A stretch of DNA of 63,027 nucleotides from Dialister succinatiphilus YIT 11850. GTDB taxonomy: Bacteria > Bacillota > Negativicutes > Veillonellales > Dialisteraceae. The stretch's first letter is position 1, and every line of letters begins with the position of its first letter. Shown here piece by piece: positions 27,836 to 40,954 of the stretch. The stretch is taken from NCBI RefSeq assembly GCF_000242435.1, contig NZ_JH591188.1, positions 329,498 to 392,524 of the forward strand. The letters run 5' to 3'. The position numbers and the translations under genes were made by a program. Below the pieces are notes generated by a model. That model was not told the DNA's origin, searched no databases, and was given only the letters and a program-made list of their open reading frames with translations.

Positions 27836-29497
27836 ATGTCTAACGAATCCCTGAAAGCTAAACTTGATGCCTACAATGCAGAATATGCAAAACAGGTTGC
27901 AAAACATCCGGAAAGAGTTGGTCTGAAACATAAGAACCTGTACACACCACTCGATCTTGACGGTTTCGACTATGAAAAAGACCTCGGTTTCCCGGGCGAA
28001 TATCCATATACCCGTGGCGTACAGCCCACCATGTACCGTGGCCGTCTCTGGACCATGCGTATGTATGCTGGTTTCTCCACCGCTGAAGAATCCAACAAAC
28101 GTTATAAATACCTGATTGCTAACGGCGGCACCGGCCTGTCTGTTGCATTCGACCTTCCGACCCAGATCGGTTATGACTCCGACGACAAAATGTCCGCTGG
28201 CGAAGTTGGTAAGGTAGGCGTAGCTATCGACTCCCTCTACGATATGGAAAGACTGTTCGATGGCATTGATCTTGGCAAAGTTTCCACTTCCATGACCATC
28301 AACGCACCGGCTTCCGTACTGCTGGCTATGTACATTGCAGTAGCTGAAAAACAGGGCGTTCCTGCATCTGCACTTCGCGGCACCATTCAGAACGATATCC
28401 TGAAGGAATACGCAGCTCGCGGCACCTACATTTTCCCGGTTAAACCGTCCATGCGTCTGATTACCGATATCTTCGAATACTGCTCCGCTAACGTACCGAA
28501 GTGGAACACCATTTCCATTTCCGGCTATCATATCCGTGAAGCTGGTTCCACCGCTGCTCAGGAAGTTGCATTCACCATTGCTGATGGTATTGCTTACATC
28601 GAAGCAGCTCTGAAAGCAGGCATGAAGATTGATGAATTCGCTCCACGTCTGTCCTTCTTCTGGAACGCTCACAACAACGTACTCGAAGAAGTTGCTAAAT
28701 TCCGTGCATCCCGTCGTATCTGGGCTAGAATCCTGAAAGAAAGATTCCATGCTGAAAACGCAAAGTCCATGAAACTCCGTTTCCACACCCAGACCGCAGG
28801 CTCCATGCTGACAGCTCAGCAGCCGAACAACAACATCATCCGTGTTGCTCTTCAGACCGCAGCAGCAGTTATGGGCGGCACCCAGTCCCTGCACACCAAC
28901 TCCCGCGATGAAGCACTGGCTCTTCCGACCACTGAATCTGTAACCATCGCTCTTCGTACCCAGCAGATCGTGGCTTACGAATCCGGCCTGGCTGACGTAG
29001 TTGATCCGCTCGGCGGCTCCTACTATGTTGAAGCAATGACCAACGCTATCGAAGAAGAAGTTATGCAGTACATCAAGAAGATTGATGAAATGGGCGGCGC
29101 TGTAGAAGCTATTGATAAAGGCTACATCCAGAAAGAAATTCAGGATTCCGCTTATGCTTGGCAGATGGCTGTTGAATCCGGCGAAAGAACAATCGTTGGC
29201 GTCAACAAGTTCACCATGGAAGAACCGCCGGTTACCGGCCTGCTGAAGATTGATGCTTCCGTTGGCGAAAGAAAGAAAGCTCAGCTCGCTAAAGATAAGG
29301 AAAACCGTGACCAGGCTAAAGTTGCTGAAGAACTGGCTAAACTTGAAAAAGCAGCTCAGACTCCGGCTGAAGGTCCAGATCATGTTAACCTTATGCCAGT
29401 CATCCTCGACTGCGTACGTGCATACTGCACCGAAGGCGAAATCTGCGGCGTTCTCCGTAAAGTATTCGGCGAATACAAACCGCACAACACCCTTTAA
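27836..29497 (+). CDS. Methylmalonyl-CoA mutase, catalytic (large) subunit of the split type
   Basis: 553 residues. This is the TIM-barrel half of a B12-dependent mutase interconverting succinyl-CoA and (R)-methylmalonyl-CoA. [12 protein letters not shown] and GFSTAEESN match the CoA-binding barrel start, followed by [18 protein letters not shown]. Tyr in TMY and Arg in AARGTYIFP, the residues separating methylmalonyl- from isobutyryl-CoA mutases, are both of the methylmalonyl kind. The cobalamin domain is absent and supplied by the next gene. ATG 27836 follows AGGAGG by about 11 bases. Codon use is even and biased, suggesting high expression. Confidence 0.95.
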
Positions 29498-29561
29498 TCT
29501 TAGGGCAGCCTGAAGCAAGAGAATCTTACATTACTGAACATATTTCTGGAGGTAATTTACA

Positions 29562-29960
29562 ATGGCAGACAAACGTATCAGAGTACTCGTAGCTAAACCG
29601 GGTCTTGATGGACACGATCGTGGTGCAAAAGTTATTGCCCGTGCACTTCGCGACGCAGGCATGGAAGTTATTTACACCGGTCTTCGTCAGACCGTTGAAC
29701 AGATTGTTGAAGCAGCAGATGCAGAAGACGTTGATGTAGTAGCTCTGTCCCTGCTCTCCGGCGCTCACAACACCCTTTTCCCGGAAGTTGTAGAAGCACT
29801 GAAAGCTAAAGGAATGGGCGACGTTCTGGTTATCGGCGGCGGCGTAATTCCGGAAGACGATATCCCAGGCCTTGAAAAAGCTGGCGTAAAAGCTATCTTC
29901 ACACCTGGCACCCCAACAAAGAAAGTTATTGACTTCATTAAAGAAAACGTTAAGAAATAA
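29562..29960 (+). CDS. Methylmalonyl-CoA mutase, cobalamin-binding (small) subunit
   Basis: 132 residues, a free-standing B12-binding Rossmann-like domain. The lower ligand His18 sits in LDGHDRG (the DxHxxG motif), with SLLSGAH and [11 protein letters not shown] forming the nucleotide-tail pocket. Together with the 553-residue chain it makes a heteromeric mutase like the archaeal and isobutyryl-type enzymes. GGAGG lies 10 bases before ATG 29562. The alternative, a glutamate-mutase-type S subunit, is less likely because the partner is a methylmalonyl-type barrel. Confidence 0.95.
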
Positions 29961-30077
29961 TCAGCCTGTAGCTGTTATTGACTGACGTTTGGTAATTTAG
30001 CTGCTAGGGACTGGACTAATACCCAGCCCCTTGCAACTATATTATTTCTCTTTACTCTTCGAAAAGGCGGTGTATCC

Positions 30078-31016
30078 ATGGAATTCTCAATGAAAGATTT
30101 TTGGAATGGAAACAGACGTGCCTTAGCGAGAGCAATTACCATCGTTGAAGACGAACGGGATGGATTTGAAGATATCATGAAAGATATCTATCATCATACC
30201 GGTCGTGCACAGGTCATCGGTATCACTGGTGCACCTGGTGCGGGTAAGAGCACACTGTCAGATGCCCTGATCAAGAAATACCGTGCTCAGGGTAAGACCG
30301 TAGGTATCGTAGCAGTCGATCCTACCAGTCCGTTCTCCGGCGGCGCCATCCTTGGCGACCGTATCCGTATGAACGACCTGACCTTGGATAAGGGTGTTTA
30401 TATCCGTAGTATGGGCACGCGAGGCAGTCTCGGCGGACTTTCCCGCAAGACAGCTGATGCGGTAAAACTGATGGATGCTTTCGGTCTCGATGTTATTTTC
30501 ATCGAAACAGTAGGCGTAGGACAGTCAGAAGTCGATATCGTCAAAAATGCGGATACAACACTTGTTGTGCTCGTACCTGGACTTGGTGACGATATTCAGG
30601 CTATTAAAGCAGGTATCCTCGAAATTGGTGATGTATTCGTCATCAATAAATGTGACCGTGATGGCGCAGATCGTCTGAATGTAGAAATCGAAATGATGCT
30701 CGATCTGGGCGAAGCCCAGAACTGGCGTCCTCCGATTGAAAGGACGATTGCGAACAAAGACCAGGGTGTAGATGATGTAGTAGCAGCCCTGGGCGATCAT
30801 CGTAAGTATCTGGAAGAATCCGGCGTTCTTGATGAAAGAAGACGCGACCGGGCTCGTTCCGAAATGCTTGAGATGATTCACGACCGCATTTCCCGTCATA
30901 TTGAAGAAACCATCTCCAAGACGGGTGAATTTAGTGACTACGTGGAACAAGTCTTTGAACGGAAAACTGATCCGTACACAGTCGTTGATTCCATTGTGGG
31001 CAAAATATTCAAATAA
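30078..31016 (+). CDS. meaB: MeaB-family GTPase, mutase chaperone (first copy)
   Basis: 312 residues. G3E-family GTPase that protects and reloads adenosylcobalamin on methylmalonyl-CoA mutase. Walker A GAPGAGKST (from residue 51), VAVDPTSPFSGGAILGDRIRM (switch region), TVGVGQSE and NKCDRDGAD are visible. It lies between the mutase B12 chain and the epimerase, as expected for an accessory factor. A small hairpin (GGGACTGG with CCAGCCCC) precedes it at about 30008-30031. The other MeaB of the window, at 39788, is only partly similar. Confidence 0.94.
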   Translation: MEFSMKDFWNGNRRALARAITIVEDERDGFEDIMKDIYHHTGRAQVIGITGAPGAGKSTLSDALIKKYRAQGKTVGIVAVDPTSPFSGGAILGDRIRMNDLTLDKGVYIRSMGTRGSLGGLSRKTADAVKLMDAFGLDVIFIETVGVGQSEVDIVKNADTTLVVLVPGLGDDIQAIKAGILEIGDVFVINKCDRDGADRLNVEIEMMLDLGEAQNWRPPIERTIANKDQGVDDVVAALGDHRKYLEESGVLDERRRDRARSEMLEMIHDRISRHIEETISKTGEFSDYVEQVFERKTDPYTVVDSIVGKIFK

Positions 31017-31035
31017 TTTTAAAGGAGGAGTTATT

Positions 31036-31488
31036 ATGGCATTCAAAGTTTTAACTGTCGATCATGTTGGCGTAGCTGTTAAAGATCTCGCAAAGATTAA
31101 ACAGCAGATGAAAGACATTTTCGGACTTGAACCTTCTCTGCCGGATGAAACCGTTGAAGAACAGCATGTAACCACAAGCTTCTTCAAACCATCCGCTCAG
31201 ACCGAAGCTTGCGAACTCGAATTCCTGGGTTCTACCACTCCGGACGGCCCGATTGCTCGTTTCATTGAAAAAGCAAACAACGGCAAGAACGGTTTCCAGC
31301 ATGTTGCTCTTCGTGTAGATGACATCGAAGCTGCTCTGGCTGATCTGCAGGCTAAAGAAGTTCCGCTCATCGACAAGAAGTTCCGTGTTGGTGCAGGCGG
31401 CTGTCATATTGCATTCTTGCATCCAAAGGCAACTGGCCTTCTGCTTGAACTGACAGAACGCCCCGGCGGCCCATCCTTCAAGAAATAA
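31036..31488 (+). CDS. mce: Methylmalonyl-CoA epimerase
   Basis: 150 residues of the vicinal-oxygen-chelate fold. It converts (R)- to (S)-methylmalonyl-CoA, linking mutase and decarboxylase. Metal ligands are readable: His in VDHVGVAV, His in FQHVALRVDDI and Glu in LLLELTERPGG, with CHIAFLHPK between. I chose ATG 31036, preceded by AAAGGAGG; the longer frame is a re-reading of the MeaB tail. Followed by two intercistronic hairpins. Confidence 0.95.
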   Translation: MAFKVLTVDHVGVAVKDLAKIKQQMKDIFGLEPSLPDETVEEQHVTTSFFKPSAQTEACELEFLGSTTPDGPIARFIEKANNGKNGFQHVALRVDDIEAALADLQAKEVPLIDKKFRVGAGGCHIAFLHPKATGLLLELTERPGGPSFKK

Positions 31489-31503
31489 TTTGAACGATGG
31501 CAT

Positions 31504-31550
31504 ATGACTTGCCCATTTGGGTAAGTCATCCCCCCTGTGGGGGACCCTAA
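31504..31550 (+). other. Tandem intercistronic hairpins before mmdA
   Basis: ATGACTTGCCC-ATTT-GGGTAAGTCAT is an 11-bp stem with a four-base loop, followed directly by CCCCC-CTGT-GGGGG. Neither has a T run, so processing or stability control of the highly expressed mmdA message is the likely role. Confidence 0.65.
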
Positions 31551-31569
31551 AATTTTTGGAGGTGTAAGA

Positions 31570-33099
31570 ATGGCAACTGTTGAAGAAAGAATTGAACTTC
31601 TCCATAAAAACCTCGCTCATGTAGAGGCTATGGGTGGCGAAAAACGTGTTGAAAAACAGCATGCAAAAGGCAAACTGACTGCTCGTGAAAGACTTGCTCT
31701 TCTGTTTGATGAAGGCACTTTCGTAGAAGTCAATGCCCTTGTAAAATCCCGCTGCCACAACTTCGGCCAGGAAAAGAAAGATCTCCCTGGTGAAGGCGTA
31801 GTAACAGGTTACGGCACTGTTGATGGAAGACTTGTATTTGCATTCGCTCAGGACTTCACCGTAGAAGGCGGCTCCCTTGGTGAAATGCATGCAGCTAAGA
31901 TCGTTCACGTAAATGAACTGGCTCTGAAAGTCGGTGCACCTTGCGTAGGCCTGAACGATTCCGGCGGAGCTCGTATTCAGGAAGCTGTCGATGCCCTCTC
32001 CGGCTACGGCAAGATTTTCTGGTGCAACACCATTGCATCCGGCGTTATTCCTCAGATTTCCGCAATCATGGGACCATCTGCAGGCGGCGCTGTATACTCC
32101 CCGGCTCTGACCGACTTCATTTACATGGTTAAGAAAACATCTCAGATGTTCCTGACCGGCCCGGCTGTAGTAGAATCCGTAACAGGCGAAAAGATTACAG
32201 CTGAAGCACTCGGCGGCGCAATGACCCACAACCGTACTTCTGGTGTAGCTCAGTTCGCAGCTGAAAACGACGAAGACTGCATTAAACAGATTCGTTACCT
32301 GCTCTCCTTCCTGCCTTCCAACAACATGGAAGATGCTCCTATCGTTGAAACCGGTGATGATCCCACAAGAACCGATCCGGCCCTCGATACCCTTATGCCT
32401 GAAAGCTCCAATGCTCCATATAACATGTACGATGTTATTAAGTCCATTGTAGATAACGGCGAATACTACGATGTAGCTAAGGAATTTGCAAAGAACATCA
32501 TCACCTGCTTCGCTCGTATGGACGGACAGACTGTTGGTATCATTGCTAACCAGCCGGCATTCATGGCAGGCTGCCTTGACTACAACGCATCCGATAAAGC
32601 AGCTCGTTTCATTCGTTTCTGCGACTGCTTCAATATTCCGGTTCTTAACATCGTCGATGTACCAGGCTTCCTGCCCGGCAAACAGCAGGAATATGCCGGC
32701 GTAATTCGTCACGGCGCTAAGATGCTGTTCGCTTACTGCGAAGCTACCGTTCCGAAGATCACCATGATTCTCCGTAAAGCATACGGCGGCTCCTACATTG
32801 CTATGTGCTCCCGTGAACAGGGCGCTGACCAGGTATTCGCTTGGCCGACCGCTGAAATCGCTGTTATGGGACCTGCAGGCGCAGCTAACATCATCTTCAA
32901 GAAAGATCCGAACAAAGAACAGCGTACAAAGGAATATGTCGAAGAATTCGCTACTCCTTACAAAGCTGCAGAACGCGGCTATGTAGATGCAGTTATCGAT
33001 CCGAGAAACACTCGTCCGACAATCATCAATGCACTGAAGATGCTTGCTTCCAAGCACGAAGTACATCCGGCAAAGAAACACGGAAACATTCCGCTCTAA
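31570..33099 (+). CDS. mmdA: Methylmalonyl-CoA decarboxylase alpha subunit (carboxyltransferase)
   Basis: 509 residues. Biotin-dependent carboxyltransferase related to propionyl-CoA carboxylase beta chains. It moves the carboxyl group of methylmalonyl-CoA to biotin, giving propionyl-CoA. The two crotonase-like halves show GLNDSGGARIQEAVDALSGYG and PSAGGAVYSPALTDF, then NIVDVPGFLPGKQQE and RKAYGGSYIAMCS. Downstream genes for a gamma-like membrane anchor and a biotin carrier make the sodium-pump decarboxylase the best reading, rather than a carboxylase (no biotin carboxylase gene here). ATG 31570 follows GGAGG; an upstream in-frame GTG lies in the hairpin. Confidence 0.94.
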   Translation: MATVEERIELLHKNLAHVEAMGGEKRVEKQHAKGKLTARERLALLFDEGTFVEVNALVKSRCHNFGQEKKDLPGEGVVTGYGTVDGRLVFAFAQDFTVEGGSLGEMHAAKIVHVNELALKVGAPCVGLNDSGGARIQEAVDALSGYGKIFWCNTIASGVIPQISAIMGPSAGGAVYSPALTDFIYMVKKTSQMFLTGPAVVESVTGEKITAEALGGAMTHNRTSGVAQFAAENDEDCIKQIRYLLSFLPSNNMEDAPIVETGDDPTRTDPALDTLMPESSNAPYNMYDVIKSIVDNGEYYDVAKEFAKNIITCFARMDGQTVGIIANQPAFMAGCLDYNASDKAARFIRFCDCFNIPVLNIVDVPGFLPGKQQEYAGVIRHGAKMLFAYCEATVPKITMILRKAYGGSYIAMCSREQGADQVFAWPTAEIAVMGPAGAANIIFKKDPNKEQRTKEYVEEFATPYKAAERGYVDAVIDPRNTRPTIINALKMLASKHEVHPAKKHGNIPL

Positions 33100-33140
33100 T
33101 ATTTGCCGCTTAAATACTCTAATTGAAAGGATGGGTACAG

Positions 33141-33455
33141 ATGGATAACAGTACAGTTATGTATATCGCGGTATTTGCTGCCGTTGTTGCAGTAATTGCC
33201 CTGATCATGATCTGGCAGGTACGTTCATCTCTCAATCAGTCCGCAGCACCGGCACCGGCCGCAGCTCCCAAGAGAGCAGCTGCAGCTCCTAAAGCAGCTC
33301 CCAAAGCTGCTGACAATGGTGCAGTCGTAGCAGCAATTGCTGCTGCTATCGTTGCTATGGGTGGCGGCGAAATCGTCTCCATCCGCCCGGCAGCTAGAAC
33401 CGGCTGGACAACCGCAGCCCGCATTGCAGGCGTTTCCGGCAATCAGCAGTTCTAA
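33141..33455 (+). CDS. mmdD: Decarboxylase membrane-anchor subunit (OadG/MmdD type)
   Basis: 104 residues: one N-terminal transmembrane helix (MYIAVFAAVVAVIALIMIW), an Ala/Pro/Lys linker, then a second hydrophobic stretch (AVVAAIAAAIVAMGGG) and a conserved basic tail SIRPAARTGWTTAARIAG. This is the pattern of the small subunit that ties the carboxyltransferase to the membrane pump. ATG 33141 follows GAAAGGATGGG. The tail matches the OadG/MmdD ending that assembles the complex. It lies between mmdA and the biotin carrier gene. Confidence 0.85.
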   Translation: MDNSTVMYIAVFAAVVAVIALIMIWQVRSSLNQSAAPAPAAAPKRAAAAPKAAPKAADNGAVVAAIAAAIVAMGGGEIVSIRPAARTGWTTAARIAGVSGNQQF

Positions 33456-33493
33456 TTGAAAGTTGAAAGTACAATCATTTAGGAGGAAAGACA

Positions 33494-33892
33494 ATGAGAA
33501 AATTTACTGTAACAGTTAACGGCCAGGATTACGATGTAGTAGTTAAAGATGGCGGCGCTGCAGCAGCAGCTCCGGCTCCGGCAGCAGCTCCGAAAGCAGC
33601 TCCGGCTCCAGCAGCAGCTCCGGCTCCGGCTCCCGCTCCGGCTCCGGCTCCCGCTCCGGCAGCAGCTCCTGCAGGTGCAGGCGAATCCGTTGAAGCTCCG
33701 ATGCCTGGTAAAGTTATCCGCATCAACAAACATGTTGGTGATGCAGTAGCTTCCGGCGACGAAGTCCTCGTTCTCGAAGCTATGAAGATGGGCAACCCGA
33801 TCATGGCTCCATGCGATGGCAAAGTAACCTCCATGCAGGTTTCCGAAGGCCAGAGCGTACAGGGCGGCGATCCGCTGTTCACCGTTGGCTAA
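33494..33892 (+). CDS. mmdC: Decarboxylase biotin carrier subunit
   Basis: 132 residues. A short N-terminal strand region (MRKFTVTVNGQDYDVVVKDG) is followed by an Ala-Pro hinge (about 21-63) and the biotinyl domain with EAMKMGNP; biotin goes on Lys98. The hinge lets biotin shuttle between the carboxyltransferase and the membrane pump. AGGAGG lies before ATG. A strong terminator follows directly, so no mmdB is in this operon. Confidence 0.94.
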   Translation: MRKFTVTVNGQDYDVVVKDGGAAAAAPAPAAAPKAAPAPAAAPAPAPAPAPAPAPAAAPAGAGESVEAPMPGKVIRINKHVGDAVASGDEVLVLEAMKMGNPIMAPCDGKVTSMQVSEGQSVQGGDPLFTVG

Positions 33893-34198: not shown

Positions 34199-34230
34199 GT
34201 TAAGAAAGGCAACTCTCTGCTTTCTTAATC
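34199..34230 (-). terminator. Terminator of the B12-domain-like gene
   Basis: On the minus strand TTAAGAAAG pairs with CTTTCTTAA across the stop codon. The T run is modest. Confidence 0.6.
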
Positions 34231-34695
34231 ATTTTCATCCTCCATCTGGGCCATGAGGAGGCCAAGCATAGTGAGGCCTGCCTGTTCCAGGGGATAATCC
34301 TTTGGGAAAACAGCGGCTATGCCATAGCGGAAGAGTGTTTCTTTCTCTTTTTCTTCTCCCTGCTGTAAAGCAATAAGGATGTCATCCCTGCCTTGCAGGG
34401 TGAGGGCTCTTTCCAGTTCCACTGTCAGACGGACTCTATGGGGACTGTCGGTACTGAAGTAAATGAAATGGACATCGTTTTCTATGGCATGGCGTGCGGT
34501 GTCTTCCGGGGTTTCCATGGAGCCTACATCCACGTCCCAGCCTCCATCGGCGAAGGTGGTGGCAGCCAGCTTCCTTTCTTCTTTGGAATGGTCTTCTTCC
34601 ATGTCTGCCATGTAGAGACGAGGCCTTCTGCCTTCCATGTCTGCCAATTTTTTTGTCAGTTCTACCGACTTCTGACGTTCCATTTCCTGATTCAT
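34225..34695 (-). CDS. Degenerate B12-binding-domain-like protein, orphan
   Basis: 156 residues. From residue 20 on it aligns without gaps to the C-terminal cobalamin domain of MutB encoded at 37581-39776: MEGRRPRLYMADMEED against [16 protein letters not shown], and FADGGWDVDVGSMETPED against [18 protein letters not shown]. The cobalamin motif is gone: DGHDRG is replaced by DHSKEE, with Ser37 at the ligand His position. The GG of CIGGVIPP becomes LQQGEEKE. It therefore should not bind B12 in the usual way. It is an intact frame with its own promoter, ribosome site and terminator, so not obviously a dead fragment. It is transcribed away from the riboswitch-controlled mutase operon. Confidence 0.85.
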   Translation of the reverse strand: MNQEMERQKSVELTKKLADMEGRRPRLYMADMEEDHSKEERKLAATTFADGGWDVDVGSMETPEDTARHAIENDVHFIYFSTDSPHRVRLTVELERALTLQGRDDILIALQQGEEKEKETLFRYGIAAVFPKDYPLEQAGLTMLGLLMAQMEDEND

Positions 34696-34716
34696 TATGA
34701 TTCTCCTTATTTGTGA

Positions 34717-34783
34717 AATAAAGAATGACCAATGAATTATTCATTCTTTATTCATTATACTTTCTTTTATGCCTTTATTTCAA
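34717..34783 (-). promoter_or_regulatory. Promoter with overlapping operator-like dyad for the orphan B12-like gene
   Basis: On the minus strand TTGAAA (34783-34778), 18 bp, TATAAT (34759-34754). From -5 to about +30 lies a perfect inverted repeat: AATAAAGAATGA (34717-34728), 12-base spacer, TCATTCTTTATT (34741-34752). A second palindrome AATGAATTATTCATT (34731-34745) is nested in it. The placement suits a repressor site. Confidence 0.6.
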
Positions 34784-34846
34784 ATATTATTTGCAAATAA
34801 AATTATAAATTAACAGTAAAATTAGATAAAAATCACAGTAAAATAA

Positions 34847-34875
34847 TTGACACTTAGAAATTAATGAATTATACT
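34847..34875 (+). promoter_or_regulatory. Promoter of the riboswitch-controlled mutase operon
   Basis: TTGACA (34847-34852), 17 bp, TATACT (34870-34875). The -10 lies in TTAATGAATTATAC, and its 10-mer AATGAATTAT also occurs in the nested palindrome at 34731-34740. Confidence 0.85.
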
Positions 34876-34905
34876 GTGGATGTAGTCTTTTGGACAATTT
34901 CACAT

Positions 34906-35060
34906 TTCTGACAGATGCGAAAGCATAAAAGAGAATCCGGTATAAGCCGGAGCGGTCCCGCCACTGTAAGGAGGAGTTCCTGCTCAAAAATGTCACTGGG
35001 GAAACCTGGGAAGGCGAGCAGGAATGAGGAGTCCAAGCCAGGAGAACTATCTGTCAAAGA
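34906..35060 (+). promoter_or_regulatory. Cobalamin (adenosylcobalamin) riboswitch aptamer
   Basis: Hallmarks are present in order. GACAGAT (34910-34916) closes with ATCTGTC (35049-35055) as P1. GCGGTCCCGCCACTGTAAGG contains the invariant GCCACTG at 34960-34966. The B12 box AGTCCAAGCCAGGAGAAC lies at about 35030-35047. The aptamer begins about 25-30 nt after the predicted transcription start. It precedes the mutA-mutB-meaB genes. Confidence 0.95.
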
Positions 35061-35133
35061 ATCACCGTTAGGGAAGCTCGATTTTCAAAATAAATCCTGC
35101 TTCCAGAAACCTGCGAATGATGGGGAGGGGATT

Positions 35134-35184
35134 GGGACATATTGTCCCTCTGACCGGCTGCCATCCATAGGTGCCGGCTTTTTT
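35134..35184 (+). terminator. Expression-platform hairpins of the cobalamin riboswitch
   Basis: GGGAC-ATATT-GTCCC (35134-35148) is followed by CCGGCTGCC paired with GGTGCCGG and TTTTTT (35154-35184), an intrinsic terminator. The pair can act as the transcription-termination platform. Confidence 0.8.
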
Positions 35185-35207
35185 CATGCCAATATACCTT
35201 GAAGGAG

Positions 35208-35299: not shown

Positions 35300-37579
35300 A
35301 TGGATGAACAGAAATCCCAGGAACCGGTAAAACAGCTGACAGATAAAGAGCTTGAAGCGATCCTTAAAAAATCTGAAGGAAAAACGGATTTCCCGGCAGT
35401 TAAATTTGATGAATTCACACCGCCCACATGGGAAGAATGGGTGGATGCCTGCAATGCACTTCTCAAAGGCAAGCCTTTTGATAAACTCATGTATACGAAA
35501 ACTTATGAAGGCATTACGTTCGATCCCATTTACACGCTCCGCACCGGTCCTGTAGCTATGGATAAGGACCTGCCTCTTGATGATTATCCAGGGATGGGTG
35601 ATTATCTCCGGGGGTCCACGGTGAATGGCTATAAGGAAGCGCCCTGGGGCATTGCCCAGGCCTGCGACGAGACGCTGCCTTCCGAAAATAATGAGCTTTT
35701 GAAGCATGAAATCGATAAGGGGTCCACGGTGTATAATGTCCGTCTTGACAGTGCATCCATGGATGGTGTGGATGTGAAGGATGCGGAAAAACCGGGGGAC
35801 ACCGGCGTATCTATTACGACGCTGGAAGACATGGCTCATCTTCTGGATGGCCTTGATCTTAAGACCTATCCTTTCATGATGTACTGCGGACCTTCCGCTG
35901 TCCGCATGATTGCACTGGCAGCTGCTGCATTGAAAGCAAAGGGAAAAGATACCAGTGAACTTCATGGTGTAATCGGTGCCAATCCTTTGGCTCAGCTGGC
36001 AAAGAATGGTACTCTGATCAAGCCGCTCTCTGCCTGCTATGACGACATGGCAGAATCTATCCGCTGGGCCAGGAAGAATGCACCCCATCTTCGTACCATC
36101 ATGGCGAGAAGCGAAGTGTTCTCCAGAGGCGGTGCCAATGCAGTGCAGGAAGTGGCTTATACCTTCGCCATGGCGGTGGAATATATCCGGGAAATGGAAA
36201 AGAGAGGAGTTTCCATTCATGATATAGCCCAGTCCATCAATTTCGGATTCAATGTGGGTAACGTATTCTTTATTGAAATCGCCAAACTCCGGGCTGCCCG
36301 GGAAGTATGGGCCAATATCATGAAGGCCTTCGGCGCTGAAGAAGCAGACAGGAGCTGCCGTATCCATTCCCGTCCCGCTTATTTCTACCGCACCATTTTT
36401 GATGCCGGCGTCAATATGCTTAGAAATACGACAGCCATGTTCTCCGCCGTGGTGGGCGGCGTAGATACCTACGAAAACGAGCCCTATGATGAAACGGTGA
36501 GAAAGGGGGATGAATTCTCCCGCCGTATAGCAAGAAATGCCCATATTATCCTGCAGGAAGAATTCGGCATGCTTCGTCCTATCGACCCTGCCGGCGGTTC
36601 CTGGGCCTTGGAACATCTGACGAAGGAAATGGCTGGAAAAATCTGGAAGGAATTCCAGAAAATCGAGTCCATGGGCGGCTTTACGAAAGCCCTGGAAGCC
36701 GAATATCCGCAGGAACAGATCCTTGATATCCTGAAGCAGCGTTTCAAGGCACTGGATTTCCGCAAAGACCGGGCTGTAGGAAACAACATGTATCCGAACA
36801 TGGCGGAAGAACTCATCGAACCAAGACCGGAAGATACACCGACTCTCAAGAAACAGCTTGTGAAAGGGGTAGAAGATTACAGGAAGGACATGGACAAGGA
36901 GTACCTGGGGAAAAAGCTGGAAGAACTGGAAGCATCTCCGGTTGCCGGAAAGCTGGATAAGGCTATCGAAGCCTTTTCTGCCGGTGCCACCCAGAACGAG
37001 GTCTATAAGGCCATGATTCCGGATGGGGAAGCAGAAAAAGTTCGTCCTATCACGGAACACCGCTGGACAGAACGGTTTGAGCGTCTCCGCTTTGATACGG
37101 AAAATTATAAGAAAGAAACAGGAAAGAATGTGGAAGTCTTCCTGGCCAATATGGGACGTATCCCGCAGCACAAGGCAAGGGCCGATTTTTCCACTTCGTT
37201 CCTGCAGGTAGGCGAATTCAATGTGCATTTGAACAACGGCTTCCAGGATGACGAAGGAAAACCGGGCTCCCGCTGGGATAAATGCGTGGAAGCGCTGAAA
37301 GCTGGCTGTGACGATAAGGGTACGCCCTATGACTGTGCCGTTATCTGCTCCAAGGATGACACCTATCCTGAAGATGTACCGGCTCTGGCTCCCCGGCTGA
37401 AGGAAGTGCTTGGCAAAGGGAAACTGTTCCTGGCAGGAGCTGCACCAAAAGACCTGGAGCAGACATACCGTGATGCCGGTATTGACGATTTCATCAGTGT
37501 GAAGGCAAACTGCTATGAGATCATCCGCAGTCTTCAGAGGGAAAAAGGCATGAAGATTACGGAAGAGGAGGTAAAATAA
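35300..37579 (+). CDS. mutA: Methylmalonyl-CoA mutase small (beta) subunit, MutA type
   Basis: 759 residues. This is the non-catalytic partner in the heterodimeric mutase of the Propionibacterium type. It keeps the barrel-and-Rossmann layout (for example [38 protein letters not shown]) but its C-terminal domain has no DxHxxG, as usual for MutA. I chose ATG 35300 because AAAGGAGG lies upstream at 35284-35291 and the longer frame would begin inside the riboswitch terminator. mutB follows after 1 bp. Somewhat longer than many MutA proteins (about 620-740). Confidence 0.93.
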
Positions 37580-37580
37580 T

Positions 37581-39776
37581 ATGGCAATGAATCCCGATTT
37601 CACAAAACTGGACCTGGAAAATCATCCTTCCTGTGATTACGATGTCTGGAAAACAGGGCTGGAAGAAACGACGGGCAAATCCTACAATGATTTGTACGAC
37701 ACCACCCTGGAGCGTATCCCCGTAGGTCCCCTGTATACCAAAGATATTTATAAAGAATGCAATCATCTGGATTTTATGAGCGGCATTCCTCCGTTCCTGA
37801 GAGGCCCCTACTCCACCATGTATGTATTCCGTCCATGGACAGTACGTCAGTATGCCGGCTTCTCCACAGCCGAAGAATCCAATGCCTTTTATAAGAGAAA
37901 CCTGGCTGCCGGGCAGAAGGGGCTGTCCATTGCATTCGACCTTCCTACCCACCGGGGCTACGATGCGGATAACCCCCGCGTAGTAGGCGATGTGGGCAAG
38001 GCAGGCGTATCGGTATGCTCCATGCTGGACATGAATATCCTCTTTGACGGTATCCCCCTGGACCAGATGTCCGTATCCATGACTATGAATGGCGCCGTGC
38101 TTCCCATCCTGGCTTTCTTCATCTGCGCCGGCATTGAGCAGGGGGTAGACAGGAAAATCCTCCAGGGCACTATCCAGAACGATATCCTGAAGGAATTCAT
38201 GGTCCGCAACACCTACATCTATCCGCCGGCCATGTCCATGCGTATCATCGGCGATATCTTCGAATACACCACCAAGTACATGCCGAAGTTCAATTCCATT
38301 TCCATTTCCGGCTACCACATCCAGGAATGCGGCGCTACCTGCGACCTGGAACTGGGCTATACCCTGGCTGATGGCATGGAATACATCCGCTGCGGTGAAA
38401 AAGCAGGACTGCCGGTGGATGCTTTCGCCAAGCGTCTGTCCTTCTTCTGGGACCAGGGCAAGAACTACTTCATGGAAGTAGCCAAGATGAGGGCTGCCAG
38501 AGTGCTGTGGGCTAAGATTCTGAAAGGCTTTGGCGCCAAAAATCCGAAGTCCATGGCTCTCCGTACCCATTCGCAGACCTCCGGCTGGTCCCTTACCGAA
38601 CAGGATCCCTTCAACAATATCACCAGAACCTGTATGGAAGCCATGTCCGCAGCCCTGGGCCACACCCAGTCCCTGCACACCAACGCCCTGGACGAAGCCA
38701 TCGCGCTGCCTACAGACTTCTCTGCCCGTCTGGCAAGAAATACGCAGCTCTATATCCAGGATGAAACGAAGGTTTGCAAGATTATCGATCCCTGGGGCGG
38801 TTCCTACTATCTGGAATACCTGACCAATGAAATGATTAAACGGTCCTGGGCCCATATCCAGGAAGTGGAATCTCTGGGAGGCATGGCCAAGGCTATTGCC
38901 ACAGGCCTTCCGAAGATGCGTATCGAGGAATGCGCTGCCCGCCGCCAGGCTGACATTGATTCCGGCAGAGAAACCATTGTAGGCCTGAACAAGTATCGTC
39001 TGGCCAAGGAAGACCCGTTGAACGTACTCTCCATTGACAATACCGCCGTACGGAATGCGCAGATTAAACGCCTTGAAAAGCTCCGCTCCATCCGGGATCC
39101 AGAAAAAGTACGCCGGGACCTGGAACACATTACCAAGTGTGCCGAGAGCAGGGACAATGGCAACCTTCTGGACGCTGCCGTACAGGCAGCCCATGACCGC
39201 TGCTCTCTGGGTGAAATTTCCGACGCCGTGGAAAAGGTGTCCGGCCGCTACAACGCCACCATCCATACCGTATCCGGCGTGTATTCCAGCGAATTCCAGG
39301 ATAACGGCCAGTTTGACAAGGCTAAGAAACTGATTGAAGAATTTGATGCACTCGAAGGCCGCCGTCCCCGTATCTTCTTCTGCAAGATGGGTCAGGACGG
39401 TCATGACAGAGGCCAGAAGGTACTGGCATCCTCCTTTGCCGACATGGGCTGGGACGTGGACGTAGGTCCCCTGTTCCAGACACCGGAAGAAGCGGCCCAG
39501 GATGCCGTAGATAACGATGTTCATATTGTTGGCTTCTCCTCTTTGGCTGCAGGACACAAGACACTGCTTCCAGCCCTGGTGGAAGAACTGAAGAAACGGG
39601 GCCGCAGCGATATCCTCGTTTGCATTGGCGGCGTTATCCCACCCCAGGATTACCAGTATCTCTATGACCATGGCGCCACTGCTATCTTTGGACCGGGCAC
39701 CAATATCCCGAAGTGCTGCATCGAACTTCTGCAGATCCTTGTGGACCGTGCCAAAGCCGAAGCCAGGGAAGGATAA
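37581..39776 (+). CDS. mutB: Methylmalonyl-CoA mutase large (alpha) subunit, MutB type
   Basis: 731 residues, the catalytic chain. Substrate barrel: [37 protein letters not shown] and [10 protein letters not shown], with the Tyr and Arg of true methylmalonyl-CoA mutases. The C-terminal cobalamin domain is intact: DGHDRG with ligand His608, then FSSLAAGH and [10 protein letters not shown]. It is a second, independent mutase besides the split enzyme at 27.8-30.0 kb, here behind a cobalamin riboswitch. GGAAGAGGAGG precedes ATG 37581. Confidence 0.97.
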
Positions 39777-39787
39777 GGTAAGTGCTT

Positions 39788-40954
39788 ATGCCTGATAACG
39801 ATGATGACCTGAGACCCAGCTGGGTGCCGAAGGAAAAGAACCCTGAATTTGCCTGTACCGTTATGCGCGGCATTGACAGTGCCGTGAACAGCGTTACCAG
39901 TGCCAAGTATTACCCGAAGGAAAATCTCCGCCGCGTACCGCTTCGGAAGAAAATGAGCGTGGAAGAATATGTGGAAGGCGTGAAAAAGGGGGACCGTATG
40001 ATTCTGGCCAAGGCCATTACCCTCATTGAGAGTAACGCCCCCAAAGACTTCGATAAAGCCCAGCGCGTCCTGCAGGCACTCCTTCCCAGGACAGGACATT
40101 CCCTCCGTATCGGTATCACCGGTGTCCCCGGCGCAGGCAAGAGTACCTTCATCGAAGCCTTCGGGCAGCTTCTCTGTCAGCAGGGCTATAAAGTAGCCGT
40201 GCTGGCGGTGGACCCTACCAGCTCCATCACCGGCGGCTCCATTCTGGGCGATAAGACCAGGATGCAGAAACTGTCCCGGGAACCGAACTGTTTCATCAGG
40301 CCCTCTCCCTCCGGCGGTACCCTGGGAGGCGTGGCCAGGAAGAGCCGTGAAACCATGATGCTCTGCGAAGCGGCAGGCTGTGATGTGATCCTGGTAGAAA
40401 CCGTAGGCGTAGGCCAGTCAGAAACCACAGTCCGTTCCATGGTAGATTTCTTTATGCTGGTGGTTCTTACCGGTGCCGGCGATGACCTTCAGGGCATCAA
40501 GAAAGGCATTATGGAACTGGCCGATGCCATCGTGGTGAACAAGGCCGATGGGGACAATCTGGAAAGAGCTAAGGTCACCCAGGGAGAATACGAACGGATG
40601 GTAGAATTTATCCGCCCCGCTACGGAAGGCTGGAAAACCCATGCCTACCGCTGCTCTGCTCTGCAGAAAACGGGACTTCTGGAATTGTGGGCAGTGATGC
40701 GGGAATTTGAAAAGGTGACGAAAAAATCCGGCGCCTTTGAAAACCGACGCCAGCGCCAGATCATCGCCTGGGTCAAAACCATGATTGACGAGCATCTGCA
40801 CAATCTCTTCTATGAAGACCCTGTCATCAAAGGCAGACTTCCGGAAGTGAGGGCAGCCGTGCTGGCAGGGGTGGTATCACCCAGCCAGGCAGTGGCGGAA
40901 CTGATCAGGACCTTCGATCTTGATCGCGCCGCCGCCCGCCATTTGGATTCATAA
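39788..40954 (+). CDS. meaB: MeaB/ArgK-family GTPase, mutase chaperone (second copy)
   Basis: 388 residues. Same family as the 312-residue protein at 30078 but with an extra N-terminal segment of about 70 residues. Walker A GVPGAGKST, switch VAVDPTSSITGGSILGDKTRM, TVGVGQSETT and NKADGDNLE are present. It is placed after mutB in the riboswitch operon, so it probably serves that mutase. ATG 39788 follows AAGG at 39774-39777; a GTG at 39782 in frame is an alternative. A strong terminator follows. Confidence 0.93.
   Translation: MPDNDDDLRPSWVPKEKNPEFACTVMRGIDSAVNSVTSAKYYPKENLRRVPLRKKMSVEEYVEGVKKGDRMILAKAITLIESNAPKDFDKAQRVLQALLPRTGHSLRIGITGVPGAGKSTFIEAFGQLLCQQGYKVAVLAVDPTSSITGGSILGDKTRMQKLSREPNCFIRPSPSGGTLGGVARKSRETMMLCEAAGCDVILVETVGVGQSETTVRSMVDFFMLVVLTGAGDDLQGIKKGIMELADAIVVNKADGDNLERAKVTQGEYERMVEFIRPATEGWKTHAYRCSALQKTGLLELWAVMREFEKVTKKSGAFENRRQRQIIAWVKTMIDEHLHNLFYEDPVIKGRLPEVRAAVLAGVVSPSQAVAELIRTFDLDRAAARHLDS

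Follow-up and report, generated by a model that had tools for sequence, protein, structure and literature searches.

The window analysed here is a whole stretch of 63,027 nucleotides of DNA from Dialister succinatiphilus YIT 11850, which belongs to the Dialister lineage. It was found that a small gene on the minus strand, hereafter called the orphan, lies back to back with a cobalamin riboswitch and mutAB, as an earlier note on this DNA had claimed; the riboswitch is followed by mutA, mutB, and meaB. The features of the locus are as follows.

34225-34695, minus strand: the orphan gene, encoding a 156-aa, probably B12-dead paralogue of the MutB cobalamin domain (from the ORF, homology, and an AF2 model)
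34357-34365, minus strand: QQG codons in place of the GG that belongs to the B12 tail pocket
34375-34392, minus strand: GRDDIL codons, with the kept MeaB-interface Arg (human R694)
34468-34482, minus strand: ENDVH codons, kept acidic contacts (MeMCM 632/634, human D663/D665)
34522-34551, minus strand: ADGGWDVDVG codons, the kept edge strand pairing with MeaB switch I and the Asp contacted by switch III
34576-34593, minus strand: DHSKEE codons at the position of the cobalamin-ligand motif DGHDRG, with the His lost
34618-34632, minus strand: GRRPR codons, a kept MeaB/MMAA contact (human MMUT R614 and R616)
34754-34783, minus strand: predicted sigma-70-like promoter of the orphan, TTGAAA-18-TATAAT (consensus match only)
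34847-34875, plus strand: predicted promoter of the riboswitch-mutAB transcript, TTGACA-17-TATACT (consensus match only)
34896-35068, plus strand: cobalamin riboswitch aptamer (RF00174, 94.7 bits) ahead of mutA
35301-37579, plus strand: mutA, the non-catalytic mutase subunit, whose own C-domain is B12-dead and has lost the MeaB contacts
37581-39776, plus strand: mutB, the catalytic mutase subunit, whose cobalamin domain has an intact DGHDRG
39788-40954, plus strand: meaB, a G-protein chaperone and the proposed partner of the orphan

The orphan ORF starts with ATG and has an intact frame of 156 codons, as had been noted before, and a ribosome-binding site (AAGGAG) lies at 34703-34708. The Shine-Dalgarno sequence and the start codon are conserved across three orthologues, namely the window copy and those of the genomes G003 and G001. 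Unlike a MutA-type subunit, the orphan is a lone domain without a TIM barrel. It is 33% identical to the C-domain of the window MutB over 142 aa (E 1e-26), which bears out the claimed homology, but the alignment is not gapless; there are two single-residue gaps, one of them at the position of human MMUT F651. The score of the orphan for TIGR00640 (methylmalonyl-CoA mutase C-terminal domain) is 65.7 bits, above the cut-off of 57.45, and four of the five other copies described below also pass that cut-off. The score for the Pfam B12-binding family (PF02310) is 20.1, below the cut-off of 32.1. Thus, automatic annotation would label proteins of this type as a cobalamin-binding mutase domain, although cobalamin binding seems improbable from their sequences.

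The claimed promoter was recovered by consensus matching. An operator-like dyad is indeed present at 34717-34752, but it is AT-rich and is missing at both orthologous loci, so that I rejected it as a regulatory operator. The claimed terminator could not be confirmed, as no convincing one was seen directly 3′ of the orphan gene. No DNA-binding domain was found in the orphan. Together with the non-conserved dyad, this speaks against the suggestion that the orphan is a DNA-binding regulator. In Dialister, the orphan lies outside the meaB operon and is not under riboswitch control.

Several other elements were observed nearby. A cobalamin riboswitch ahead of a B12-dependent mutase (34896-35190) is an unusual arrangement. 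A terminator-like hairpin at about 35152-35185 is also kept in the genome G005, where the aptamer itself was not found at the contig end. Additional cobalamin riboswitches occur near mutAB as close pairs in G003 (L036 16418-16859) and G001 (L035 3189-3633), and G010 (L038 3788-4614) has two of them about 480 bases apart near the mutAB region. Beside mutAB-meaB, the window has a second, split B12 mutase system (27836-33892) with a 553-aa subunit and a 132-aa DGHDRG subunit, together with a shorter MeaB (30078-31016) and genes for an epimerase and the mmd decarboxylase; the sister species G004 retains only this split system and not mutAB-meaB. The MeaB proteins of these Negativicutes have an N-terminal extension of about 50 aa (DLRPSWVPKEKNPEFACTVMRG...; window 39788-39950), which falls outside the portion aligning to the solved MeaB structures.

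Are such proteins present in other bacteria? The search covered the family, 380 genomes of Negativicutes, and a sample of 249 genomes from the phylum, and I also scanned the regions on either side of about 60 mutAB loci, for the most part one in each genus. Six orphan-type proteins, all apparently B12-dead, were found in total. Three of them are true orthologues, those of the window, G003 (Dialister sp. UBA7295), and G001 (Veillonellaceae bacterium DNF00626), which are 46-50% identical, all intact, and all divergent from riboswitch-mutA-mutB-meaB. The far flank of the G001 orphan differs from those of the other two loci, which indicates that mutAB, rather than the mmd operon, is what the orphan has remained linked to. 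The expectation that homologues would stay next to mutAB thus held for G003 and G001, but the accompanying expectation of a DHSKEE-like change did not, since the motif was lost differently in each copy. The fourth copy, in the genome G010 of another Dialisteraceae genus, is situated between mutB and meaB and has a GGAGG-ATG start of its own. It has no stop codon ahead of MeaB and therefore encodes a fusion of a B12-like domain with MeaB, 557 aa in length. The fifth and sixth copies belong to two species, G079 and G080, of one genus in another family and follow mutA-mutB-meaB. The two share 76% identity, and their nearest relative otherwise is their own MutB (44%). Three small conserved genes (118, 93, and 93 aa; L080 1-952 and L081 9039-9992) follow the degenerate-domain gene in G079 and G080.

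The two same-genus genomes without mutAB, G002 and G004, are also without the orphan. In G004, for which there is a complete chromosome with 99% protein identity in mmdA, homology to the window ends just beyond the mmd operon. A riboswitch-like sequence near a glutathione-peroxidase-like gene (L078 6598-8223) replaces the orphan-riboswitch-mutAB-meaB segment there, which suggests a deletion between two riboswitch copies. G005 has mutAB, but its contig ends within the mutA leader, which makes it uninformative about the presence of the orphan. No orphan-type gene was found in G007, a 75% complete genome of another genus of the family in which mutAB is present. Thus, the orphan is dispensable.

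In the phylogenetic tree, the Dialister copies and the G079/G080 copies group with different MutB groups (split 99/98), and this grouping favours two or more separate births of orphan-type proteins. I rejected the stricter claim of independent births in the two families because a single common origin of these copies is not rejected (AU p 0.13). A grouping of the G010 copy with the Dialister copies is permitted (AU p 0.60), but it depends on very long branches. A one-residue deletion was considered as a marker of all copies, but it is common to the three Dialister copies only and is missing from G010. Second B12-type matches in Negativicutes genomes with multiple hits (query start 20-38, with frames about 130-150 aa long, a part of which were read) look like small split-mutase subunits or assembly breaks. 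As for an origin from mobile elements, no relative was found in viral contigs, and the plasmid matches listed are annotated as MCM or carry no annotation.

The six copies read DHSKEE (window), DGCGEK, DDDKEN, DDGTHA, AENNHD, and TENDHD at the DGHDRG position, and the axial His of DxHxxG is replaced in all of them. In the window orphan, SxL reads SxD and GG reads QQ. The earlier note had stated that every element holding B12 is lost; this is true of the His, the G, and both Gly residues of GG, but the first D of DxHxxG and the S of SxL are retained. A set of B12-loop residues was built from the general DxHxxG...SxL...GG motif and its neighbours, and of its 14 residues without variation in MutB, not one is shared by all six copies. 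No replacement motif is conserved in the ligand loops across the six copies. I infer that the orphans have probably lost cobalamin binding as such.

What, then, has been kept? In the complex of M. extorquens MeaB:MCMcbl, the contacts are the strand 612-616, D609, residue 632, D634, and E577 (PMC9974510). In the human MMAA:MMUT complex, they are R614, R616, D640, D644, F651, Q652, and D663, with R694 as an interface variant site, and the human variants R616C and R694W reduce GTPase activation (PMC10356863). These contacts, a list derived from distant species, were mapped onto the orphans by alignment, and the DGHDRG motif and several anchors served to check the numbering; in the present alignment, the PDB sequence has Glu at the residue called Asp632 in PMC9974510. 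It was revealed that the orphan-type proteins retain GRRPR, the [WF]DVD edge strand, [DE]ND, and the RxDI Arg. R614, R616, D644, V645, D646, D665, and R694 are identical in all six copies, and the D640 and D663 positions are each D or E in all six. The F651/Q652 spot is not kept, nor is E577 (MeMCM numbering), which is Ala in four of the six. With invariant columns defined over 17 MutB sequences including the human one, eight of the nine MeaB-contact columns are identical in the window orphan. Seven of the nine are kept in all six copies, compared with 8/41 of the other invariant columns (Fisher p 0.0016) and 0/14 of the B12 columns (p 0.00015), p values to be read in the light of the six proteins coming from at most three lineages and not being independent draws. 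When the contact set was slid along the domain, no slide did better and at least one tied.

The AF2 model of the orphan (pLDDT 91, pTM 0.86) shows a full Rossmann domain to which a helix is added at the N-terminus, and its edge strand is the strand E54-59. Its top Foldseek match is 8dpb_D (E 2.4e-12), an isolated MCM cobalamin domain bound to MeaB. By VIA, the model gives Z 22.0 and an rmsd of 1.8 over 146 residues against 8dpb_D, and Z 21-23 against MCM chains.

It is reasonably probable, in my judgement, that the G-protein chaperone MeaB has in the orphan a naturally occurring, B12-dead pseudo-client. The analysis shows the homology, the intact frames, the purifying selection, the linkage to mutAB-meaB, the loss of the B12 ligands, the keeping of the MeaB contacts, and the predicted fold. 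Binding of the orphan to MeaB is strongly implied by its sequence; such physical binding and the sign of its effect are what I infer from these observations. The orphan would dock on GTP-MeaB via the kept edge strand, with WDVDV pairing with switch I, and via the kept Arg and Asp contacts. It would occupy MeaB and possibly trigger the GTPase, neither receiving nor holding AdoCbl. Its occupancy may set the amount of MeaB free for loading and unloading MutAB, limiting idle engagement of MeaB with the mutase, and apo-MutAB would displace it. The likeliest effect seems to be that of a weaker competitor or placeholder, because a free domain does not have the barrel contacts that strengthen the binding of a whole mutase; the main alternative within the same binding model would be a GTPase-activating or timing role. 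In G010, the in-frame domain may act in cis, in the domain order of IcmF. The lost F651/Q652 contacts and the change of E577 to Ala in four of six copies count against the pseudo-client reading. So do the small set of six proteins from at most three lineages, the contact list taken from distant species, the fast evolution of the orphans relative to MutB, the G007 genome with mutAB and no such gene, and, in Dialister, the position outside the meaB operon and beyond riboswitch control. Among the roles that the earlier note had offered, a partner or decoy for MeaB fits best.

The kept residues might serve the fold only and be uninformative on MeaB, for the edge strand and GRRPR sit within secondary-structure elements, and the flanking G612, R613, P615, and G642 are also kept. 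I regard this as unlikely. The C-domain of MutA, used as a B12-dead control, has the same fold, yet it has lost the contacts, its identity at the contact columns being 21%, which is its background level; thus, the fold alone does not demand these residues. Moreover, several of the kept residues are charged and are named MeaB contacts, and two are the human variant sites of R616C and R694W. It would be equally unlikely that the orphan binds the mutase itself (MutA or the barrel of MutB) and helps to assemble or cap the apo-enzyme. Its ancestor is a domain of MutB packed against the barrel, and it stays with mutAB; however, the loops facing B12 and the barrel are the most changed, whereas the edge facing MeaB is kept, and the in-frame fusion partner in G010 is MeaB and not a mutase subunit. 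A sensor or carrier that still binds a small ligand, a corrinoid or some other, but in a different way would suit the Rossmann fold, which the model predicts to be retained at high confidence, and the S and G remnants in some copies. The loss of the axial His in every copy and the ligand loops without a conserved replacement motif make this still less likely.

The possibility that the orphan is a decaying duplicate of the 3′ end of mutB, retained by chance, has to be weighed against the selection data. The orphans evolve fast relative to MutB (amino-acid identity of 49% versus 91% for one species pair), and each copy lost the B12 motif in its own way, which would suit decay. However, dN/dS is 0.09 for the G079-G080 pair and 0.16 for the G003-G001 pair; for the window and G003, the orphan dS is saturated, and dN/dS is about 0.37 when the dS of the neighbouring MutB (0.98) is used. 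The dN/dS of MutB is 0.02-0.04 in pairs with measurable dS. The gene is intact in three species despite the saturated synonymous divergence, and only about 1% of frames remained open at 0.4 substitutions per site in a neutral simulation. The conserved Shine-Dalgarno sequence and start, the recurrence beside mutAB-meaB in other genera, and the non-random keeping of residues also argue against decay. The earlier note had considered that missing homologues, or frameshifted fragments under relaxed selection, would mark a decaying duplicate; what was found is intact orthologues with dN/dS well under 1. Recent decay was rejected on the grounds of the selection and the preserved ORFs, and decay in general, already largely refuted, is very improbable. 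The orphans appear to be functional genes with a faster rate of evolution than the enzyme, and since the difference from MutB is large, the function could be narrow.

The pseudo-client reading agrees with the idea of a co-opted domain put forward in the earlier note; there are intact orthologues beside mutAB under purifying selection and copies in other lineages, one fused to MeaB, and the MeaB contacts are kept. A wider reading is conceivable, although I hold it at somewhat less than even chances, in which the domain by which a B12 enzyme docks has been detached repeatedly in bacteria, losing its cofactor site while preserving its grip on the chaperone. As parts of this reading, regulation of MeaB in trans by the Dialister orphans and in the genus of G079 and G080, and in cis by the G010 fusion, would be possible to the same tentative degree.

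Defects in the MeaB/MMAA pathway lead to methylmalonic aciduria. To my knowledge, it is not settled whether MeaB/MMAA is regulated by anything besides its mutase. If the pseudo-client reading is true, the orphan would be a separation-of-function reagent made by evolution, showing which contacts suffice for MeaB to be engaged and switched, and it would also bring to light a protein-level control of B12 loading in the propionate pathway of gut bacteria. MCM cobalamin domains and the B12-dead domains in MutA are known separately. No description of a protein like the orphan was found in the openly accessible literature, the coverage of which was incomplete; a free-standing B12-dead MCM domain keeping the chaperone interface is not described in the searchable literature, and its pseudo-client function is my proposal.

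The orphan resembles several known systems in part. The three orthologues share with the C-terminal cobalamin domain of MutB (TIGR00640/PF02310) the Rossmann fold, 33-42% identity, and the MeaB-contact surface, but the orphan is free-standing without a barrel and has lost the axial His, SxL, and GG. MutA, encoded in the same cluster, also has a B12-dead cobalamin-type domain; this domain is, however, fused to a barrel in the mutase heterodimer and has lost the MeaB contacts. Split mutases have small B12 subunits (about 132 aa; window 29562-29960) that are likewise free-standing Rossmann domains of the B12 type, but these subunits keep DGHDRG, have no N-terminal helix, and belong to their own mutase subunit. 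The G010 protein follows the domain order of IcmF (B12 domain, G domain, mutase), its B12-type domain coming immediately before a MeaB-type G protein; in contrast to IcmF, it has lost the B12 ligands and has no mutase part, and the window orphan is a lone domain. The best fold match, MeMCMcbl of M. extorquens (PDB 8DPB), is an engineered, isolated apo MCM cobalamin domain that binds MeaB in its GTP state and stimulates its GTPase 25-fold, compared with about 100-fold for the whole mutase, a difference that its authors credit to extra barrel contacts (PMC9974510). Both are stand-alone cobalamin-type domains, but MeMCMcbl is man-made with an intact B12 motif, whereas the orphan is natural and without the B12 ligands.
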